In this document: piece after piece, positions 4,706 through 31,785 of the stretch
Layout: each line of letters opens with the position of its first letter
How positions within the stretch are numbered: position 1 is the stretch's first letter
From: a virus
Direction: 5' to 3' (one strand)
IMG/VR virus record: IMGVR_UViG_3300005831_000008
Coordinates: 1-32,182 of that record
DNA: 32,182 nucleotides
The notes under the pieces: model-generated
What the model was told of the DNA's origin: nothing
Database searches by the model: none
The model's input: only the letters and a program-made list of their open reading frames with translations
Position numbers and translations under genes: made by a program

Positions 4706-5209
4706 ATGTCCAAGAGGGGCAGACCAACACTTTATAATCGTGCTACGGCCAATGCGATTATAAACATGTTTAGGAATGGAAAAACCAAAGCAGAAATCTC
4801 TAAGATAATGGGAATTGACCTTTCTACCATGGAAGATTGGTATAAGGCCTATCCAGATTTTCTCCGCGCCATACGTAAATCACAAGAAATTTATATCAAG
4901 GAAGGAGCTGAAAAGGCCCTTAAAGATCTTGTTGAAGGTACGAAGGTTAAAGAAAAAAAGGTAGAAAAGATTAGAGTTTGGGTAGAAGAAAAGAACAAAT
5001 ACGAAATGATTGCCGTTAAAGAAGAGATAATAACCAAAGAGATACCGCCAAACTTTCACGCTATTAAATTTACATTGCTTAATCGCGCTAAGAATCGATG
5101 GAAACATCAGCAAAACTTCACTATTGATGCAACTAACCTACCGTCACAAGAGTTAGTTACTCTTGCTAAAGAAGCTTTAAGAGAGATTGAAAAGGGAAAA
5201 GATAAATGA
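4706..5209 (+). CDS. terS: Terminase small subunit
   Basis: I take the ATG at 4706 (167 residues) because AAAGGG lies just upstream; the longer frame from 4601 would run through the preceding gene. The N-terminus GRPTLYNRATANAIINMFRNG and then TKAEISKIMGIDLSTMEDW form a helix-turn-helix typical of small terminases, with a downstream helix YPDFLRAIRKSQE. The middle is rich in Lys/Glu and the C-terminus holds a helical PSQELVTLAKEALREIE segment. The small subunit recognises phage DNA and stimulates the large subunit. Position before portal and large terminase supports the call, although two to three extra genes separate it from TerL. It overlaps the GNAT gene by ATGA. Confidence 0.8.
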   Translation: MSKRGRPTLYNRATANAIINMFRNGKTKAEISKIMGIDLSTMEDWYKAYPDFLRAIRKSQEIYIKEGAEKALKDLVEGTKVKEKKVEKIRVWVEEKNKYEMIAVKEEIITKEIPPNFHAIKFTLLNRAKNRWKHQQNFTIDATNLPSQELVTLAKEALREIEKGKDK

Positions 5210-12369: not shown

Positions 12370-13740
12370 ATGGCAAATCGTAACTTTGACTTTAGACAAT
12401 CACTAGAAAGACAAATCAAATCAATATTTTTAAAAGCAACATATGCGCCTACTGCCGCCACTGTTACTTTACCTACTACTACACCAATAGTATTAACAAA
12501 GGCAGCAGCTAATTCTCTTTATAACGGTCATACTTATCAATTAGCAATTGCAGCAGCAGCAGCTAACCCTACTGATACCGTTTTAGCAGTATGGACAGGT
12601 ACAGCAGCAGCAGCAGTACTTACAATTACTCCTAATGATGGGACTAATAACCCTACAACACAAGCAAGCGGTAGCTTAGCAACTACTACACCTATTGTTT
12701 TAACAAAAACAGTAGCAGCTCAGCCCGGAGTTGCAGGAAATACCAAAACTGTAACATTAGAAGTAGAAGCAGCAGCAGCTAATCCAGGTGACACCGTTTT
12801 AGCAGTAGTAACAGGAACAGCAGCAGCTACTATTATTACTATTACCCCTAATGATGGAACAAATAACGCCGCTACTCCTGTACCACTTACAACAGCTGAA
12901 TTAGTTGAGTGGATCAACTCAGGCGCAGTGGTTGGTAAAACTGTTACAACAACAGATGTTGGTGGTTTAAGAGACGACCAAACAGCAACAGGTGGTGATG
13001 CTACTAATCTTGCTGATGCAGGCGAAGGTGATGGTCTAGTTTGTACGTTTACAGGCGGTGCTAATACGGCCGTTACTTTAACTACTGCCGAACTTGCAGA
13101 GTTAATTGATACAGGCGTAGTAGCAGGAAAGACTGTTACAGTAACAGATGTAGGCGGTTTATTAAATGATCAAGATGCAACAGGTGGTGATGCTACTCCA
13201 GTGGTTGCAGCTGGCGAAGGTGATGCTCTTACAGCTACATTCGCAGGCGGTGCTAATACTGCTGTATCGCTTACTACCGCTGAAGTTGTTGAACTCATTA
13301 ACTCCGGCGTAGTAGCAGGAAAGACCGTTACAGTAACTGATGGTAGTTCTTTAAGAGTGACATCAACAGCAACAGGCGGCGGAACTGAAGAAGTTGCTGA
13401 TGGTGGTGAAGGTGATCTTACAGCTCAAACATTTGCAGGAGCAATCGATTTTACTTTAGATAATGCGTATGGAATTTACTCAGTAGGATTAACAGCAGTA
13501 GGAACTATACGAGTAACTTTTGTTGATAAATATTATGCTCTTAAATTTGTAGATGCCATTGTTCTAGATGCTACTGCTAGAGACTTTACTACTCAAATTA
13601 AAGCACTAGATGTTAATCCAACATCTGGCAGAGCTTACGTTGACATCTATACTCTTACAGGTGCAACAGCTACAACTTTACCAGTATCTAGTAAGTTGCT
13701 AGCTACGTTTGATCTTAAAAACACATCAGCGATAGTGTAA
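12370..13740 (+). CDS. Candidate decoration protein, repeat-expanded paralogue
   Basis: The 456-residue product has the same ends as the preceding gene: N-terminus FRQSLERQIKSIFLKATY and C-terminus IKALDVNPTSGRAYVDIYT and DLKNTSAIV. Between them, about residues 28-360, lies an Ala/Thr/Gly-rich insert. It consists of two copies of a unit beginning TTTPIVLTK and ending NDGTNN (starting at about 36 and 105), then three copies of a 64-residue unit beginning LTTAE (173, 237 and 301) with the shared VAGKTVTVTD and ATGGD or ATGGG. Each unit looks like a strand-rich domain, so the insert may project from the head surface. Ribosome-binding site CGAGGGA. Function beyond virion association is unknown. 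Confidence 0.65.
   Translation: MANRNFDFRQSLERQIKSIFLKATYAPTAATVTLPTTTPIVLTKAAANSLYNGHTYQLAIAAAAANPTDTVLAVWTGTAAAAVLTITPNDGTNNPTTQASGSLATTTPIVLTKTVAAQPGVAGNTKTVTLEVEAAAANPGDTVLAVVTGTAAATIITITPNDGTNNAATPVPLTTAELVEWINSGAVVGKTVTTTDVGGLRDDQTATGGDATNLADAGEGDGLVCTFTGGANTAVTLTTAELAELIDTGVVAGKTVTVTDVGGLLNDQDATGGDATPVVAAGEGDALTATFAGGANTAVSLTTAEVVELINSGVVAGKTVTVTDGSSLRVTSTATGGGTEEVADGGEGDLTAQTFAGAIDFTLDNAYGIYSVGLTAVGTIRVTFVDKYYALKFVDAIVLDATARDFTTQIKALDVNPTSGRAYVDIYTLTGATATTLPVSSKLLATFDLKNTSAIV
12475..13437 (+). repeat. Tandem protein-coding repeats inside the decoration paralogue
   Basis: Two type-A units (starting at about 12475 and 12682) and three type-B units (starting at 12886, 13078 and 13270, exactly 192 bases apart) make up the insert. 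The second and third B units also share near-identical DNA around GGCGTAGTAGCAGGAAAGAC (13114-13133 and 13306-13325), which fits expansion by recombination. Confidence 0.75.
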
Positions 13741-18220: not shown

Positions 18221-19687
18221 ATGTCATTTTTAAGTGGTGTACCTGTTGTTGGTGGTTTATTTGATACTCTTACAGGAGAACCAACAGCAGTAACTAAATA
18301 TAATATGTCACAAGCTGACCAACAAGCATTTAATGCTAGTCCTGAACAGCAAAGACTTATTGATTATTTAACCGCACAAGCTTACCAATCGCCACAACAA
18401 CAAATAGGCCCTTCTGCTGCTGAAGCGATGTTGAACCAAAGAACACAAGCTAATATCCAAGGTGCTTCTGGAATGCTTGGAAGTGCAAGAGGTTTACAAA
18501 ACGTTGGCATGATAGCAAGAGAATCAGCTAGGCAAGGAGCTAATTTAAATCAGCAAGCAGCAGGAGAAGCAGCAACTTTACGAGCTGATGAAATACAAAA
18601 ACAAAAAGAATTTGGTTTAGCTCAACAACAGCAACAATTACAAAAGCAATCACTCGCTGCTCAACAACAAGAATTAAACAGACAAGCAGCTATGGGAAGA
18701 TCACAATTACAAGCAGATATTGGTCTTGGTAATGCTGCTGCTGAAACAGGAGCAGCACAATCAGCAAGACAAGCTCAAACGCAACTTATTGCTGGTCTAG
18801 GACAAGCAGGGGCAACTCTTGGAGCAGCTGGTATCACTGGTGCAGCTACAAAGGCCGCAGCAGCATCAGACATTAACGTTAAAGAAAATATTTCCGATGG
18901 TTCAGGTACAACAGAAAGCGTATTAGACGCAATTTCTCGTGATCCTGCTTCTTTCCCACGACAAATTAGAGATCCAGAAACAGGAGAGGTAAGACAATTG
19001 CGTTTAGATGACCCAATAACTTTTGGAGCTGGCAAACCTTCATCATTTTTAGATACACTTAATCCTTATGAATATAATTACAAGGAACCATCTAAAAACG
19101 GTTCAGGTAAACGCCTTGGAGTGATGGCACAAGACCTTGAAAAAACTCCTCAAGGTAAAGGCATGGTTGTAAATACGAAAGAAGGTAAAAAAATAAATAC
19201 AGATGTTTCCACTCTTTTAGCAGCAGAGGCACAAAATCATCAGAGACTAAAGAATCTAGAAAACATAGTAGCTCAAACTACACAAGGTAGCTTAGGTCCA
19301 ATAGCAAGAACTCAAACAGCGCCTATGCCAGTAGCTCAAACAGCACAAGCAGGATTAGGACCAGTAGCAAGGACTGTTGCCCCTTCTTCTCCTGTTATGC
19401 GCACTCAAACATCACCATATTCTGATAAGGGATTAACTAGGTCATATTACGAAGGTGGAGAAGAAAAATTAAGAGTACCCACAAAAGAATATTCTCGTTT
19501 TGGTCTAGAACCAAATACAGGTGAAATAGTAGAAAGAGGGATGCCATTTGTAAAAGGAACATCTAGATTTGAACCTACACAAGAAGAGATAACAAAGACT
19601 AGATCATTTATTGATTTACTTGATCAGATGGAAAAAACAAAAGATCCTTTTAAAAACTACAAGATGAAAAAAACAATTAGCAAATAG
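18221..19687 (+). CDS. Internal virion protein with S74 autoprocessing chaperone domain
   Basis: Of 488 residues, 1-210 are Ala/Gln-rich and helical, with a membrane-seeking start (GVPVVGGLFDTL), typical of DNA-ejection proteins. At 216-221 lies SDINVK, matching the Ser-Asp-x-x-x-Lys signature of peptidase S74 intramolecular chaperones (Ser216 nucleophile, Lys221 base), followed by FLDTLNPYEYNYKEP and RLGVMAQDLEKTPQGKGMV, then an AAEAQNHQRLKNLE helix. S74 domains normally sit at the end of tail fibres and cleave themselves off. Here the domain is inside, with a roughly 50-residue insert and 140 further low-complexity residues. Predicted cleavage before Ser216 would release the helical part. 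Confidence 0.75.
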   Translation: MSFLSGVPVVGGLFDTLTGEPTAVTKYNMSQADQQAFNASPEQQRLIDYLTAQAYQSPQQQIGPSAAEAMLNQRTQANIQGASGMLGSARGLQNVGMIARESARQGANLNQQAAGEAATLRADEIQKQKEFGLAQQQQQLQKQSLAAQQQELNRQAAMGRSQLQADIGLGNAAAETGAAQSARQAQTQLIAGLGQAGATLGAAGITGAATKAAAASDINVKENISDGSGTTESVLDAISRDPASFPRQIRDPETGEVRQLRLDDPITFGAGKPSSFLDTLNPYEYNYKEPSKNGSGKRLGVMAQDLEKTPQGKGMVVNTKEGKKINTDVSTLLAAEAQNHQRLKNLENIVAQTTQGSLGPIARTQTAPMPVAQTAQAGLGPVARTVAPSSPVMRTQTSPYSDKGLTRSYYEGGEEKLRVPTKEYSRFGLEPNTGEIVERGMPFVKGTSRFEPTQEEITKTRSFIDLLDQMEKTKDPFKNYKMKKTISK

Positions 19688-24808: not shown

Positions 24809-25159
24809 ATGACACGAAAACAACAACTAGGACCCAAAGAGGTCATTGATTCAACAACACTTTCAACCAATTTGAATGGCGAAAAATCTGTATGTGAAAA
24901 CGTAGATAGAATTATCTACGATATAACTTGGTTGAATGGTTCTTCACTAAACGCAACCATGAAGATTCAAAAATCCCATGATGCAATTACATGGTACGAC
25001 CTTGATTTAATTAACACATTAACTCTTTCAGGTGCTTCAGGATCGGAAACAGTAATTATAAAAGATATTACCTACAAATACATTAGACCGATCATCACTT
25101 TTGTAGCTGGTTCATGTGACTTATTAACAATCGTTAAAGGCGTAAGCGAAGGAAATTAA
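24809..25159 (+). CDS. Small beta-rich virion-type protein, paralogue of 4350-4688
   Basis: The 116-residue product contains NATMKIQKSHDAITWYDLDL, SGASGSETVIIKDITYKYIR and a C-terminal TIVKGVSEGN, in the same order and spacing as the protein near the start of the late operon. It has an AAGGAG site (24795-24800) in the short gap after the giant ejection gene. Strand-rich with no membrane segment. Its place just ahead of the repeat protein and tail fibre suggests a tail or fibre-associated subunit. The match to the first copy is visible by eye; the role is inferred. Confidence 0.65.
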   Translation: MTRKQQLGPKEVIDSTTLSTNLNGEKSVCENVDRIIYDITWLNGSSLNATMKIQKSHDAITWYDLDLINTLTLSGASGSETVIIKDITYKYIRPIITFVAGSCDLLTIVKGVSEGN

Positions 25160-25161
25160 TC

Positions 25162-25821
25162 ATGGGAACTCAAGTATATCCATCACAATCAACAACTGCT
25201 TTACCAGTAGGAGCAGCAACGGCCGCACTACAAACAGCAGGCAATAACTCGCTTGCTTCAATAGATAGTAAAATTCCTTCAGGTCTTGCAACATCAGCAA
25301 AGCAAGACACAGGCAACAGCTCTCTTTCTTCAATTGATACAAAACTTACTTCGCAAGCAACGGCCGCACTACAAACAGCAGGCAATGCAAGCTTAACCTC
25401 AATAGATGGCAAGACTCCAGCATTAGGCCAAGCACTAATGGCCGCTTCTGTTCCTGTAACAATTGCAAGTAATCAAACTGCATTTCCTGTCACTCCTGCC
25501 ACGCTAACAGTAGTAGATCAGATTGATACAACTCCATTACTAGATTTAAGCTCTGTTAATATTCCTGCAAGCTCTGCAAACTCTCTTTCTCTAGTTGCTT
25601 CACTAGCAGCAGCAGTAAAGAAAGTAATAACAGTAGAGGATATCGGAGAGTTTCTAGGTCTTTATTCTGGACCTGTAGCAACTCCCACACTTCTTTGTAT
25701 TCTCCCTCTTGGAGGTGGCGAGGTAGATATATCAATACCAGCAGGAACGTTAGTATCAATAAGACATATGAAAAATAGTGCTATTGCTTCAGGATTTATA
25801 GCAATCAATTTTCTAGGTTAA
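25162..25821 (+). CDS. Repeat-bearing virion protein
   Basis: The 219-residue product is built from short repeats in its first half: units such as AALQTAGNNSLASIDSKIP, SAKQDTGNSSLSSIDTKLT and AALQTAGNASLTSIDGKTP, followed by GQALMAASVPVTIASNQTAFPV. This style of T-G-N-x-SL-x-SID units and the AASVPV-x-ASNQ closing is widespread in phage tail proteins encoded ahead of fibres. The second half is a strand-rich globular domain (FLGLYSGPVATPTLLCILPL, then EVDISIPAGTLVSIRHMK). Likely a tail or fibre-associated protein. It starts three bases after the previous stop. Confidence 0.7.
   Translation: MGTQVYPSQSTTALPVGAATAALQTAGNNSLASIDSKIPSGLATSAKQDTGNSSLSSIDTKLTSQATAALQTAGNASLTSIDGKTPALGQALMAASVPVTIASNQTAFPVTPATLTVVDQIDTTPLLDLSSVNIPASSANSLSLVASLAAAVKKVITVEDIGEFLGLYSGPVATPTLLCILPLGGGEVDISIPAGTLVSIRHMKNSAIASGFIAINFLG
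25215..25386 (+). repeat. Exact 31-base direct repeat in the repeat-protein gene
   Basis: A 31-base sequence beginning AGCAACGGCCGCACTACAAA occurs identically at 25215-25245 and 25356-25386, 141 bases (47 codons) apart and in the same frame. Silent positions are also identical, which points to recent duplication or gene conversion rather than selection on protein alone. Confidence 0.85.
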
Positions 25822-25844: not shown

Positions 25845-27659
25845 ATGCCAGCTTCAATTTTTAATGGTACGGCCGTAAAGATTTTAAAAGACATATTACG
25901 CTTTAAAAGCGGTATCGATATCATTAGTACAACCACTAATCCCTTAACTACTGGTTATGCAGCGGCCATTGGTTCCCTGCTTTTAAAAACTGACACCTAC
26001 CAGTTATTTAAAAAAATAGGTGCAGGCAATACGGCCTGGCTTGAATTTGTTGATAAAACCTACGCTGATCTAATAGATGCTAAATGGAATTATATTCAAC
26101 GATATGGTTTTGTAGATAACACACAAACTAGTATTTCTTTTGACGATACTACTTACACTTTTACTCTAACCGATACAGGTTCGGGTTGGGTGTATATGAG
26201 GAATGGAGTTACTTGCTCAATAACAGGTAATAAAACCACTACTCTAACAGGTACGCCACCGACAAAAGACACTTATTACATATACATTGATTCAACTACT
26301 GGAGCATTAGAAAATTCCACTTCTGTTTGGACATTAGATGACACAAAAGTTCCTGTTGCTATAATAATTTGGGATAACTCCCTTACTCCTAAGTATCATC
26401 TAGCTGACGAAAGACATACTTGCACAATAGATAGAAGAATGCATAAGTATTTGCATAATGCTATTGGAACAAGATTTATAAGCGGTGGAGACTTAGCAGG
26501 CGTAAGCGTTCAACCAGTAGGTCCAGTAGATACAGACAACACTTTTTCAGTAGCTCAAACAATCATAGCTGATGAAGACCTCTTCACTACATTAGCAGCA
26601 CTCACAGATGGAGACGGTACAACTCCAACATACGAAGTCTTTTATAGAATTAATGCCACTGAAAGAAATTGGGTACTAAGTGAAGTACCTCTAAAATATA
26701 CTCCAGCTGGCTATATAGAATATGATAATGCTGGAACAATGACAGAAGGTACAAGTAGTAAATATTATAACTACTATCTCCTTTATACGAACCTATTAGG
26801 AGCTGGAAGATATGCTTTAATTCCAGGAAGATCAGAGTTTTCTACAAGTGCCGCTGCTTATGCAGAAAATCCACTGCTATTTGATTGGACAGGCTTTCCA
26901 ATTATGGAGGCAGTAATTGCCTACCAAATTACTTTTGAAACATCAGCTGCATATGGAACTAAGGGTAAATGTCGAGTAAATAGAACACCTCAAAGAATTA
27001 ATATCCCTCTTGCTTCTGCTAATGTACCAACTAATTCTAGTCATGAGTCTTTAAGTGGTTTACAAGGTGGCACAACAAGCGAGTATTTCCATCTAACCTC
27101 CGCTCAGCATACAATCGCTACTCAAGCAGCATCTACTACTTTAAGCGGTTACTTAACCTCAACAAACTTTAACAATCTTAACTCTCGTGCAGCTGGAATA
27201 AGTTTAGTTTGGTCTAATGACTCTGAAGATAGCTGCAACGAAGTCACTCTATTTAATCAAAAGTGCTATGAGTTTCCAGATGGAGGCACACAAAAAATAG
27301 CAAGTGCCTTAAAAGTTCCCCTTAACTGGACAGCAGGAAGGCAAATCTTTCTAAGAGTGAAGTTCTTCTCTCCTACTGGTTCTGATACTGCTCTAATTAC
27401 TGCTCAGTCCACACTAATAGGTGCAGGCGTTGCTTTGAGTGATACCACAAACCAGATAACTACAACTAATACGGCCCTTACAATAACAACCGCCAACGCT
27501 GAATATGAGGCCATTTTAGACATTACAGATAATGTCGGGAAGATTAACGGTGTATTAGTAGCAGCAGGCGATACTATTTTACTAACAGTATACAGAGGAA
27601 TAGGCACTAATACAGACTTTGTTTATATAGCTCCATCAACTATTGAGGTGATTTTATGA
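25845..27659 (+). CDS. Tail fibre or host-recognition protein
   Basis: The 604-residue product is strand-rich. At about 398-425 it has HESLSGLQGGTTSEYFHLTS followed by AQH, the well-known phage tail-fibre repeat (H-x-SL-x-GLQGG-x-x-x-EYFHL), and then a trimer-type segment SGYLTSTNFNNLNSR. The N-terminal 200 residues contain FKSGIDIISTTTN, YTFTLTDTG and DDTKVPVAIIIW, resembling virion-attachment and shaft domains. The C-terminal part ends in a jelly-roll-like region with LILTVYRGIGT-type strands. Likely a trimeric fibre or part of the tail tip. It overlaps the next gene by ATGA at 27656-27659. AGGAG precedes the start. Confidence 0.78.
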   Translation: MPASIFNGTAVKILKDILRFKSGIDIISTTTNPLTTGYAAAIGSLLLKTDTYQLFKKIGAGNTAWLEFVDKTYADLIDAKWNYIQRYGFVDNTQTSISFDDTTYTFTLTDTGSGWVYMRNGVTCSITGNKTTTLTGTPPTKDTYYIYIDSTTGALENSTSVWTLDDTKVPVAIIIWDNSLTPKYHLADERHTCTIDRRMHKYLHNAIGTRFISGGDLAGVSVQPVGPVDTDNTFSVAQTIIADEDLFTTLAALTDGDGTTPTYEVFYRINATERNWVLSEVPLKYTPAGYIEYDNAGTMTEGTSSKYYNYYLLYTNLLGAGRYALIPGRSEFSTSAAAYAENPLLFDWTGFPIMEAVIAYQITFETSAAYGTKGKCRVNRTPQRINIPLASANVPTNSSHESLSGLQGGTTSEYFHLTSAQHTIATQAASTTLSGYLTSTNFNNLNSRAAGISLVWSNDSEDSCNEVTLFNQKCYEFPDGGTQKIASALKVPLNWTAGRQIFLRVKFFSPTGSDTALITAQSTLIGAGVALSDTTNQITTTNTALTITTANAEYEAILDITDNVGKINGVLVAAGDTILLTVYRGIGTNTDFVYIAPSTIEVIL

Positions 27660-29392
27660 AATATCTAATTTGTCTTTTAAGTTTCTTATTTTGTTTTAAT
27701 TTAATTGCTGGATTTACCGACGCTGATAAAGCTCAGATAAATCTAAATAATCTTTACACTAATGGAGGTGCCGAGCAAGGCCTTACTGGTTGGTCTGAAA
27801 CTGGAGGAGGAACTCTTTCGCTTGAGAAAACCGTTAAAAGAAGTGGCAAGAATGCAATCAAATTTATTTCAAGCGACGATGGAGATTTTTTAAATTTTCC
27901 TTCGGTCACTGTCAAGAAAGGCACTAATAATTGCGAGTCAACTTTTTACTACAAAACTACGGGCACAACTTACAAAGGCAAAGTTTACTATGGTGCCAAT
28001 GAAGTTGCTACTTTAGATCTACCATCAAATACCGAGTTTCAAAAGGCCCCGATTACTTTTGTATGCTCAGATGTAGCAAGTGCTTATACGACTAAAGTTA
28101 CTAATGAGACAGGGACTATCTATGTAGATGATGGTGAAATTGGGGAATACAAGGGAATTGGTTCAGTAAATCAATCACCCAAAGCATATGATGCTAATGC
28201 TGGTGATTTTACTTTAACTAGCTCTAACTCTACAAATTTTACTTTAAACCAAGGGCTAGTTACTTTCGAAGTAACAACTAATAATAAATATTTTGCATAT
28301 ATAAACGTAGTGGGTAGTTACTCTCCTCAACCAACACAAACATCAAATACATTTACCTTTACCGGTATGACTTTTAAGGCAACCTCTGAGCCTCAAGCAT
28401 GTGCTGGTCAAGCAGATGCAGGGGGATCACTAGGAACAATAATTACTCAGGTAAATTCAAATGCCAGTACAATTTCTATTTATCACTCTAGCACAAATAT
28501 TTATGGTTATGCTTTAACTTGCAAAGTTGAACTCACTGATTTACCTGCTTGGGCAACACAGACCGCTGCTTCTCAAGTTGTTCGAGCGGAGAATGCGAAT
28601 CAGTTTGGGGCGATTGAATGGACCAACGTTTCAGGTTGCCAATTCTCAGCAGGCGCAGGAAATGTTTTAGGAGATGCTGATTGTAATGCAGCTACAAGAA
28701 AACTAGGAATTGCAGAGGATGGGACTGCCGATCAATTAGAATTAAAAGTATCAAACCTTAGACCTGGAATATATAAAATTACCCCATATGGATATTTTGG
28801 AAATGGATCAGGTGGAACATTTTCATCTTTTGATATCTACGACGGTACTACAGCAAAAAACGTTATGTTCATAGACGTAGCAGCGGCCTCTTATGCTTCT
28901 TCAAATGTTGGAGTAGCATATTTTAACTACGATTCTCTACAAACTACAAGAACATTTCAGGTGCGAAGTAGTTCAGGGACATCTTACTGTTATGCAGATA
29001 GTGCAATAAGAACATGCGGTATTTCTATTGAACCAGTCTACCCAACATCTAATATGCATCAGATAATTAACTCGGTTTATTCTCAATTTATGGGGCAAAC
29101 GAGAGTTGTTTACGGTGTAATAGCTGCTGATGGTAGTATTTCAAAAACAGGCAGCGGAGATTGGGCCTCTACAAAAGATAATACTGGACAATATCACATA
29201 ACATTTACACCTGTATTTACTTCAACTAATTACTCTTGTTTATATAATTTTCAAGGAAATGGAAATTATGGTTATACTACTGTAGATGAAGTAAGTAACT
29301 CGACTGCTTCGATTGCTTATTATGGTACTCGCAATTCTGCCGGTGATGCTGCCGATAGACCAGTGACATTCACTTGTACCGGAAATAAATAA
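27656..29392 (+). CDS. Secreted cysteine-rich carbohydrate-binding-like protein in the fibre operon
   Basis: The 578-residue product begins with a Sec-type signal peptide: MK, a hydrophobic core YLICLLSFLFCFNLIA and likely cleavage after Gly19. The next domain, LYTNGGAEQGLTGWSE with KTVKRSGKNAIKF, resembles CBM_4_9-type sugar-binding modules. About ten Cys remain in the mature part (for example NNCES, FVCSD, SGCQF, DADCN, SYCYA, RTCGI, YSCLY, FTCTG), an even number that suits disulfides outside the cytoplasm. The C-terminal part (GVIAADGSISKTGSGDW, then YHITFTPVFTSTNYSC) looks like a fibre-tip or collagen-associated module. A virion protein needs no signal peptide, so it may act on the cell surface. 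It is translationally coupled to the fibre gene. Confidence 0.65.
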   Translation: MKYLICLLSFLFCFNLIAGFTDADKAQINLNNLYTNGGAEQGLTGWSETGGGTLSLEKTVKRSGKNAIKFISSDDGDFLNFPSVTVKKGTNNCESTFYYKTTGTTYKGKVYYGANEVATLDLPSNTEFQKAPITFVCSDVASAYTTKVTNETGTIYVDDGEIGEYKGIGSVNQSPKAYDANAGDFTLTSSNSTNFTLNQGLVTFEVTTNNKYFAYINVVGSYSPQPTQTSNTFTFTGMTFKATSEPQACAGQADAGGSLGTIITQVNSNASTISIYHSSTNIYGYALTCKVELTDLPAWATQTAASQVVRAENANQFGAIEWTNVSGCQFSAGAGNVLGDADCNAATRKLGIAEDGTADQLELKVSNLRPGIYKITPYGYFGNGSGGTFSSFDIYDGTTAKNVMFIDVAAASYASSNVGVAYFNYDSLQTTRTFQVRSSSGTSYCYADSAIRTCGISIEPVYPTSNMHQIINSVYSQFMGQTRVVYGVIAADGSISKTGSGDWASTKDNTGQYHITFTPVFTSTNYSCLYNFQGNGNYGYTTVDEVSNSTASIAYYGTRNSAGDAADRPVTFTCTGNK

Positions 29393-29584
29393 ATGAAAAT
29401 CACTTGCGAAAACTGCAATCAAATTTCTTGCTATGATAAACTGGAAGAGATTCTTGAAGATTGCGGTTTTTGCAAGATATGCGGAAAAGAATATTGCATA
29501 CATTGCGCAGAAAAAGGAACGCATTTCATATGTAAAATGCCAACACTAGAAGAAAGAGATGAAAATAAAATACCATTGCGTTAG
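29393..29584 (+). CDS. Small treble-clef-like zinc-binding protein
   Basis: The 63-residue product has four cysteine groups: C5-x2-C8 (CENC), C27-x2-C30 (CKIC), C35-x2-C38 (CIHC) and H44/C47, plus C13 and C24. It probably binds one or two zinc ions. It starts at the base after the secreted-protein stop. Small zinc-finger proteins in late operons are often of unknown role; nucleic-acid or protein binding are options. The end overlaps the next zinc-ribbon frame by 26 bases. Confidence 0.65.
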   Translation: MKITCENCNQISCYDKLEEILEDCGFCKICGKEYCIHCAEKGTHFICKMPTLEERDENKIPLR

Positions 29585-29693
29585 ATGTTCTTTAGAGTTT
29601 GACTTAAGCGAAACTAAAGACAAAGTATGTCCACAGTGTAAAAATACTATCTTGGAGTGGGTAGAAGATATCAAGGAAGATAGCGATGAGTAA
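29559..29693 (+). CDS. 44-residue zinc-ribbon protein
   Basis: A short frame starting MKIKYHCVRCSLEFDLSE has C7-x2-C10 (CVRC) and C25-x2-C28 (CPQC) around an acidic linker, a minimal zinc-ribbon pattern. The acidic tail ILEWVEDIKEDSDE follows. The ATG at 29559 lies inside the previous gene with AGAAGAAAGAG just upstream, and the stop at 29691-29693 overlaps the start of the next gene. The conserved cysteine spacing and tight overlaps support it as a real gene despite its size. Function unknown; rubredoxin-like ribbons of this kind are common small phage proteins. Confidence 0.65.
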   Translation: MKIKYHCVRCSLEFDLSETKDKVCPQCKNTILEWVEDIKEDSDE

Positions 29694-29886
29694 GCATACT
29701 TGCGAAAAAGAACAGGTTATCGACTATATTCGTCAAGATGTGGTTGAAATAAAAAAAGATGTAAAAGAACTTCTTTCTTTTAAGTCAAAAGTAATAGGTA
29801 TCCAGATAGCAATAACTACCTCTATTACGCTAATATTTAACTTGCTGTATAATTTAGTAGTGGCAATATTAAAAGGACCGCAATGA
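29686..29886 (+). CDS. Holin-like membrane protein (XhlA-type layout)
   Basis: The 66-residue product has a charged helical N-terminus with VIDYIRQDVVEIKKDVKELL, a basic linker (SFKSKVIG) and one hydrophobic segment, IQIAITTSITLIFNLLYNLV (about residues 38-57). The order of an IKKDVKELL-like helix, F-K-x-K-V-x-G and a single span matches XhlA/holin-like proteins of phage lysis modules. It has an AAGGA site and overlaps the endolysin gene by four bases (ATGA-type junction). Likely role: membrane permeabilisation or docking of the endolysin, by analogy. Confidence 0.68.
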   Translation: MSKHTCEKEQVIDYIRQDVVEIKKDVKELLSFKSKVIGIQIAITTSITLIFNLLYNLVVAILKGPQ

Positions 29887-31107: not shown

Positions 31108-31785
31108 ATGCGATATCTAATCATATTGCTCTTATTTCTATCGTGCGCATGTTCAGAAAAGCAATTACCACCGGATATTAACAAAAAGTACATGATGGAT
31201 ATTGCAATCACTGCAAATAAAATAGATATCCTTGGCATTGGGGTATTACCAAAACTAGACCGCTACGAAATTACCTTTGAATCCGAAGGCGACCTAAATC
31301 TTTTTACTTTTCGCACATGTTCAAGAGAGCAAACCTACCAAGGAAAGAAATACGGCCTTGATAAAAGAAAGATTACTATAATCTATATACCTAATGAGAT
31401 AGAGAGAAATAACGTATGCCCTGCTGATATAGGAGCATTTAGCGTATCTGGCAGGCATTCATGGGGTTGGTTATCCTTTGAAAATGATTTCAATAAACTA
31501 CCAGCTACTTTAATATGCGGAAAGTCTACCAAAGAAGCAAATGGAATTAGCGCTTGTCAGGGGAGAGTAGGATTAGTCCAGATGATCAAATTTAATGATC
31601 CTGTTATGGTTGTAACTCAACCATCTTGTACCTCTATTTTTTCGGAGAATAATAATCTAATTGGAAAGATCTTTGAGATAAAGCTTTCTAAAGGAATATG
31701 TACTTACTCTTTTATGGATATAGCATCAAGGAAGGTGCACACCCTTAATACCTACGGATATGATGATATTTTAATAAGGATTTAA
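31108..31785 (+). CDS. Phage-encoded lipoprotein of unknown function
   Basis: The 225-residue product begins MRYLIILLLFLSCACSEKQ: a short basic start, a hydrophobic core and a lipobox-like end with Cys at 13 or 15, so it is probably a lipid-anchored envelope protein. The mature part has six further Cys (RTCSRE, NVCPAD, LICGKS, SACQGR, PSCTSI, GICTYS), compatible with disulfides outside the cytoplasm, and strand-rich stretches such as KITIIYIPNEIERN and FSVSGRHSWGWLSF. It is too large for an Rz1-type outer spanin and not proline-rich. A role in superinfection exclusion or host surface change is possible but unproven. AAAGGA lies 13 bases before the start, a long spacing. Confidence 0.7.
   Translation: MRYLIILLLFLSCACSEKQLPPDINKKYMMDIAITANKIDILGIGVLPKLDRYEITFESEGDLNLFTFRTCSREQTYQGKKYGLDKRKITIIYIPNEIERNNVCPADIGAFSVSGRHSWGWLSFENDFNKLPATLICGKSTKEANGISACQGRVGLVQMIKFNDPVMVVTQPSCTSIFSENNNLIGKIFEIKLSKGICTYSFMDIASRKVHTLNTYGYDDILIRI

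Follow-up and report, generated by a model that had tools for sequence, protein, structure and literature searches.

A putatively Sec-exported, fibre-tip-like protein translationally coupled to the tail-fibre gene of a podophage-like virus

Directly behind its tail-fibre gene, a podophage-like virus encodes a 578-aa protein that appears to be made late, exported by the host Sec system and folded oxidatively, and that may act as a binder outside the cytoplasm, probably on host-surface glycans, as a decoy, mask or adhesin. We favour this reading tentatively, as somewhat short of an even chance. It builds on the gene itself, its start, its coupling to the fibre gene, a match to the signal-peptide rule, the cysteine pattern and the slot that the gene occupies. 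The window, as the term is used here, is the whole stretch of DNA that was analysed, 32,182 nucleotides of a 32-kb linear IMG/VR virus fragment.

Results

Gene, start and fibre locus

The window carries a podophage-like late array of terminase, portal (phrog_332/156), capsid (phrog_14242), ejection-type proteins, tail proteins and a fibre locus, with an NlpC/P60 endolysin at 29883, 3' of the fibre locus. The genes of the locus are:

24809-25159 (+), small tail protein, with which the fibre locus of relatives begins (phrog_9522 tail, alignment)
25162-25821 (+), small gene upstream of the fibre, kept in relatives (comparison with relatives)
25845-27659 (+), upstream tail-fibre gene, 604 aa, with the conserved N-terminal segment MPASIFNGTAVKILKDILRFKS (homologues at the same place in relatives)
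27656-29392 (+), gene for the putatively exported fibre-tip-like protein, 578 aa (sole start, Shine-Dalgarno sequence, ATGA overlap upstream, 0-bp junction downstream)

The start of 27656-29392 is not in doubt: no ATG, GTG or TTG other than ATG 27656 occurs among the first 120 codons, the frame is closed by a stop three codons 5' of it, and the preceding Shine-Dalgarno sequence TTGAGGTGATTTTATG makes a good ribosome site. The four-base overlap with the tail-fibre gene in the original prediction is real, the start codon and the end of 25845-27659 together reading ATGA, and the coordinates, strand and length given there for the gene were correct. Downstream, a small ORF with ATG 29393 begins directly after the stop. 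Since the GC content of the gene (37.4% vs 35.3% for the window) and its codon usage resemble those of the phage's other genes, recent capture is not indicated.

Two small Cys-rich, zinc-ribbon-like ORFs (29393-29584 and 29559-29693, +) lie between the exported protein and the holin-like and endolysin genes. Elsewhere in the window, 18221-19687 (+) is ejection-protein-like, carries a Peptidase S74 chaperone domain (7.7e-7) mid-gene with an SDxxxK-type motif (SDINVK), and has matching ORFs in relatives; 12370-13740 (+) holds several long internal repeats (TTAELVEWINSG...TDVGGLRDDQTATGGD), which relatives match in shifted registers, suggesting variable copy number.

A capsid search of IMG/VR gave 80 loci out of 280 matching stretches, and the tail ends of the longer loci were compared. 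Relatives with the MPASIFN...VKILKD fibre gene commonly have, in the slot that follows, another large fibre, one that starts MSYIGKNP and lacks a signal peptide (L117, L119, L120 and L122-L125); in L085, the closest relative with a fibre region, there is one 1232-residue fibre and the second gene is absent. The window protein occupies the fibre-locus position of the late array, as relatives' virion fibres do. It shares with the MSYIGKNP-type second fibres the slot behind the MPASIFN-type fibre gene and a fibre-type C-terminus, but those fibres are longer and Cys-poor and lack a signal peptide, whereas in the window protein the virion-type N-terminal segment (MPASIFN... or MSYIGKNP...) is absent and a predicted signal peptide stands there instead.

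This slot bears on the main rival to a decoy, mask or adhesin, namely that the protein is a virion fibre matured in the periplasm: exported, disulfide-folded and trimerised there, it would dock on finished virions during or after lysis and provide a second receptor-binding tip. The second large virion fibre at the same slot in relatives is consistent with such docking. The window protein, however, has no shaft-like repeats by sequence reading and no recognisable virion-attachment domain, and the upstream fibre is itself long. Because that fibre has 604 residues, a virion-type N-terminus as in relatives and what reads as a further C-terminal part of its own, the virion seems to be served without the window protein. 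We also know of no tailed phage that mounts exported fibres and, on balance, consider docking unlikely.

At a comparable position ahead of the portal and capsid genes, many relatives encode a protein of 200-255 aa whose N-terminus carries a signal peptide or anchor (L002:4309-5010, L017:4235-4915, L021:3461-4225, L022:3969-4577, L023:3648-4334, L024:3325-4071, L043:4362-5111 and others); the L002 protein, encoded just upstream of terminase, is homologous to Clp protease / head-maturation protease (PF00574 1.1e-11, phrog_94 6.7e-10). No protein of this kind was seen in the window. L122:40-2868 encodes an ejection-type protein of 942 aa that contains a phage tail lysozyme domain (PF18013, 5.6e-10) and whose N-terminus resembles a signal peptide, a segment that the alternative start Met25 would drop. 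The one GTDB match of the window's capsid is a related phage capsid on a contig assigned to an Actinomycetales MAG (L105, JAGWVT010000014.1); with 43% identity, a GC of 61% and a contig that is possibly misbinned, it is not claimed as indicating the host. Bdellovibrio as host is a lead only.

Signal peptide

27656-27709 (+), predicted Sec (SPI-type) signal peptide, aa 1-18/19, MKYLICLLSFLFCFNLIA^G (rule-based screen and hydrophobicity percentile)

The predicted export step is well supported by the N-terminus of the window protein. Its first 19 residues, MKYLICLLSFLFCFNLIAG, fit the Sec SPI rule, by which they divide into MK, YLICLLSFLFCF and NLIA^G: a charged n-region, an h-region of 12-16 residues and L/A at -3/-1, with neither a lipobox nor a twin arginine. 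Signal peptides were assigned by rule throughout, and among 1114 non-redundant genes from the window and from relatives, 25 (2.2%) meet this same rule. The 10-residue hydrophobicity of the N-terminus lies at the 99th percentile of these genes. By rule and by percentile alike, the clear signal peptide noted originally on the 578-residue product is confirmed.

An h-region this strongly hydrophobic might also stay uncleaved, as an inner-membrane anchor or a virion-internal hydrophobic segment. Its short length, together with the polar turn and the LIA^G site that come after it, nevertheless points more to a cleavable peptide than to a membrane span, and the protein has no second hydrophobic segment (maximum 19-residue mean 1.3). 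We therefore regard a membrane tether as quite improbable.

Cysteines and domains of the mature protein

27740-28150 (+), domain 1, about aa 29-165, CBM-like by motif (NLYTNGGAEQGLTGW ... GTIYVDDGEIG), Cys93/Cys137
28151-28567 (+), domain 2, about aa 166-304, beta-rich, ends LPAWA, Cys249/Cys289 (sequence only, no match)
28568-29065 (+), domain 3, aa 305-470, putative beta-sandwich, Cys328/343 and Cys445/454 (AF2 single-sequence model, Foldseek PDB)
29066-29389 (+), C-terminal region, aa 471-578, fibre-end-like motif GSGDWASTKDNTGQYHITFTPVF, Cys528/574 (sequence reading)

The mature protein, for which about ten cysteines had been noted, contains exactly ten, spaced as the five local pairs listed above. 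At 2.08% (12 cysteines in the precursor; 10 of 559 residues, or 1.8%, in the mature part), its Cys content is the highest among 53 ORFs of at least 350 aa scored around fibre loci, a set that includes eight ORFs from L010 and L060 that are head/packaging genes or unrelated. The next values are 1.92% (a head/packaging ORF) and 1.39% (the best fibre gene), and most are below 0.6%. This pattern fits folding in an oxidising compartment, in which the paired cysteines could form disulfides.

The CBM-like first domain of the original prediction holds as a short motif that resembles CBM_4_9 by eye and not beyond it: neither CBM_4_9 (PF02018) nor any other CBM profile was found on the protein in Pfam to E 1, and HHalign of domain 1 against the relatives' CBM module aligned only the short motif, not significantly. 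The fibre-tip-like end likewise stands as a sequence pattern and goes no further than that level. Structure prediction of the mature protein was productive in part. The full-length AF2 model made without an alignment had a pLDDT of 38 and was not usable, domain 2 included, and the viral Foldseek list drawn from it (TM about 0.13) was set aside as meaningless. Domain 3 alone, modelled from its single sequence, reached a pLDDT of 56 (core 58-73) and a pTM of 0.58, which is modest confidence. Foldseek against the PDB returned mixed CBM, TNF and fibre matches for this model, including lambda gpJ, jelly-roll modules of CBM4/6/22/32/35 and the Bdellovibrio Bd2734 tip (8okw; rank 28, E 6.8e-3, 20% identity, TM 0.34), with low TM values of 0.2-0.4 on query length for all matches. 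HHalign of domain 3 against the C1q-like domains of relatives scored 18.5, barely above the best of 60 shuffles (17.9). These comparisons weakly suggest that domain 3 is a beta-sandwich of sugar-binding or fibre type, nothing finer; that the window protein is of binder type appears moderately supported.

Signal-peptide fibres in two further podophages

A signal peptide was found in two of the 53 scored ORFs, the window protein and a fibre of the relative L101 (IMGVR_UViG_3300042691_032480). The L101 fibre starts at 5002 behind AAGGAGG and opens with MRFALHVFVAFLFTIGAAFGA^APVIW; after the predicted signal comes an N-domain (aa 20-115) with homology to the N-terminal part of the virion fibre of window type (HHalign 94.9%, E 4e-8; score 45.5 versus a maximum of 22.3 among 60 shuffles), and past it a shaft and then CBM-like, YTP and C1q-like modules. 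Modules of these types are also present in relatives' ordinary virion-type fibres without a signal peptide. That a fibre may have gained an export signal finds support in this placement of a signal peptide before a virion-fibre N-domain. Scanning with the N-domain motif of the L101 fibre returned only the L101 contig and one chance match elsewhere.

MW202898.1 is a complete circular podophage record outside the group of relatives. Its 'caprin-2 domain protein', annotated from 35733, has a better start at Met12 (AAAGGAG, ATG at L108:11167), from which it reads MFNKILIAIVFIITCLNAFS^DGN. This signal-peptide fibre of about 906 aa (MW202898 35766-38486), with a shaft and CBM-like and C1q-like parts, overlaps a T7-type tail fibre gene (phrog_1640, 6.7e-37) by 8 bases and is the sole receptor-binding candidate recognised among 51 annotated genes, many of them hypothetical. 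Two late genes are common to this phage and the window, 30427 (34%) and the lipoprotein-like 31108-31785 (36% identical to MW202898 916-1551, E 1e-43), and neither matched any other record in INPHARED.

Both fibres resemble the window protein in their predicted Sec signal peptides, their fibre type and their place beside a virion-fibre or tail gene of a podophage. Unlike it, they are full-length fibres with a shaft and CBM-like, YTP and C1q-like modules, and neither is significantly similar in sequence to the window protein. Each also lends something to post-export docking on virions: the L101 signal peptide directly precedes an N-domain of virion-fibre type, and in MW202898, where the exported fibre overlaps the T7-type fibre gene, that it looks like the phage's only receptor-binding protein argues that it must end up on virions.

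Searches for homologues and other exported proteins

The window protein matched no family in Pfam, PHROGs, NCBIfam or PDB sequences; NCBIfam gave a single line, a beta-lactamase scoring 19.7 bits where the cut-off is 600, and this is a chance hit. No homologue was found by the IMG/VR pattern scan, in the records of 44 relatives, by tblastn against INPHARED and PLSDB, or by a GTDB pattern scan of 84,980 bacterial and archaeal species genomes that detects close relatives only. The original prediction had proposed looking for relatives in phages beside fibres; no sequence relative was found in the collections searched. A scan for the CBM motif NGGAExG..GW gave three contigs, all unrelated.

The protein might alternatively be cargo, an adhesin exported for the host in the manner of lysogenic conversion, as with PblB or the Bdellovibrio MAT fibres, and acquired through capture of, or exchange with, an adhesin of the host. 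Exported phage-fibre-like adhesins occur in Bdellovibrio (PMC10769870), and a phage-encoded pneumococcal adhesin has a putative signal peptide (PMC4508584); the Bd2734 MAT tip is, moreover, among the domain 3 matches. The gene nevertheless lies inside a gapless late tail-to-lysis array, with phage-like GC and codon usage, rather than as an independently expressed insert, and the species-genome scan for close relatives detected no bacterial or archaeal homologue. We consider a host-serving adhesin rather improbable.

A second protein of the late region, encoded at 31108-31785 (+), is also predicted to be exported, with a lipoprotein-like signal (MRYLIILLLFLSCAC) and further cysteines. As a clue to the host, this gene yielded nothing. 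Its presence in the same late region, together with binder-type domains made alongside the fibre, would suit one branch of our preferred reading, superinfection exclusion in the strict sense, in which the exported window protein blocks the phage's own receptor. The receptor blockers T5 Llp and phi80 Cor, however, are small lipoproteins, not large late fibre-like chains, and this strict form seems very unlikely.

Discussion

We propose that the window protein is expressed late, in translational coupling with the virion tail fibre, and that this fibre-tip-type binding protein would be exported by the host Sec system, lose its signal peptide and fold as a chain of beta-sandwich domains, each possibly locked by a disulfide, as the local pairing of the cysteines suggests. 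It would then act beyond the cytoplasm, whether in the periplasm, on the cell surface or in the lysate, with surface glycans of host type as its most likely ligand. Its role may be that of a decoy or mask, or of a surface adhesin, beside the virion fibre, and not that of a virion part assembled in the cytoplasm. This reading is supported by the recurrence of signal-peptide fibres in comparable positions in L101 and MW202898 and by the other exported protein of the late region (31108-31785); it is weakened by the MW202898 fibre, which looks like that phage's only receptor-binding protein.

Part of the interpretation first offered for this gene survives, namely the export signal, the disulfide-type cysteines, the coupling to the fibre gene and, at low confidence, a sugar-binding or fibre-tip fold. 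The rule from which it argued, that virion proteins do not carry signal peptides, does not survive as a general claim: the coat proteins of filamentous phages carry them, and in MW202898 the signal-peptide fibre may join virions after its export. To our knowledge, tailed phages are thought to build all their virion parts in the cytoplasm. The proteins described here suggest that some tailed phages probably send fibre-type proteins out by the host secretion route, and do not build them only inside the cell. A far bolder proposal, which we think improbable, is a class of tailed phages that export fibre or fibre-tip proteins by Sec, fold them with disulfides in the periplasm and join them to released virions at lysis; if true, it would place a route of tail-fibre assembly outside the cytoplasm. 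With signal-peptide fibre-type proteins in three podophages, one of them a complete genome, a direct test of such extracytoplasmic assembly is possible, the alternative at stake being the release or display of fibre tips as decoys or adhesins.

No paper on phage fibres with Sec signals was found in open-licence full text, and the nearest known systems are exported adhesins. PblB of Streptococcus phages is a tail-fibre-like, glycan-binding surface adhesin; in pneumococcus it carries a galactose-binding-like domain and a putative signal peptide (PMC4508584). Like the window protein, PblB is phage-encoded, belongs to a tail-fibre locus and is exported (the window protein by rule); unlike it, PblB comes from a temperate siphophage of a Gram-positive host and has a coiled coil and internal repeats, and no sequence relation between the two was seen. 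The MAT (mosaic adhesive trimer) fibres of Bdellovibrio bacteriovorus are Sec-exported and phage-fibre-like, with varied beta-sandwich tips, of which Bd2439 and Bd2734 are TNF-like with disulfides; all 21 build long trimeric fibres and have, behind the signal peptide, a conserved beta-rich N-domain of ~130 aa (PMC10769870). They share with the window protein an N-terminal signal peptide (in the latter by rule), but they are host-encoded, and neither the ~130-aa N-domain nor the long trimeric fibre was recognised on reading the sequence of the window protein, whose mature form opens with the CBM-like motif. The window protein seems to resemble PblB and the MAT fibres in outline, an analogy that claims membership of neither family, and it may bear on the origin of exported phage-like adhesins such as the MAT fibres.
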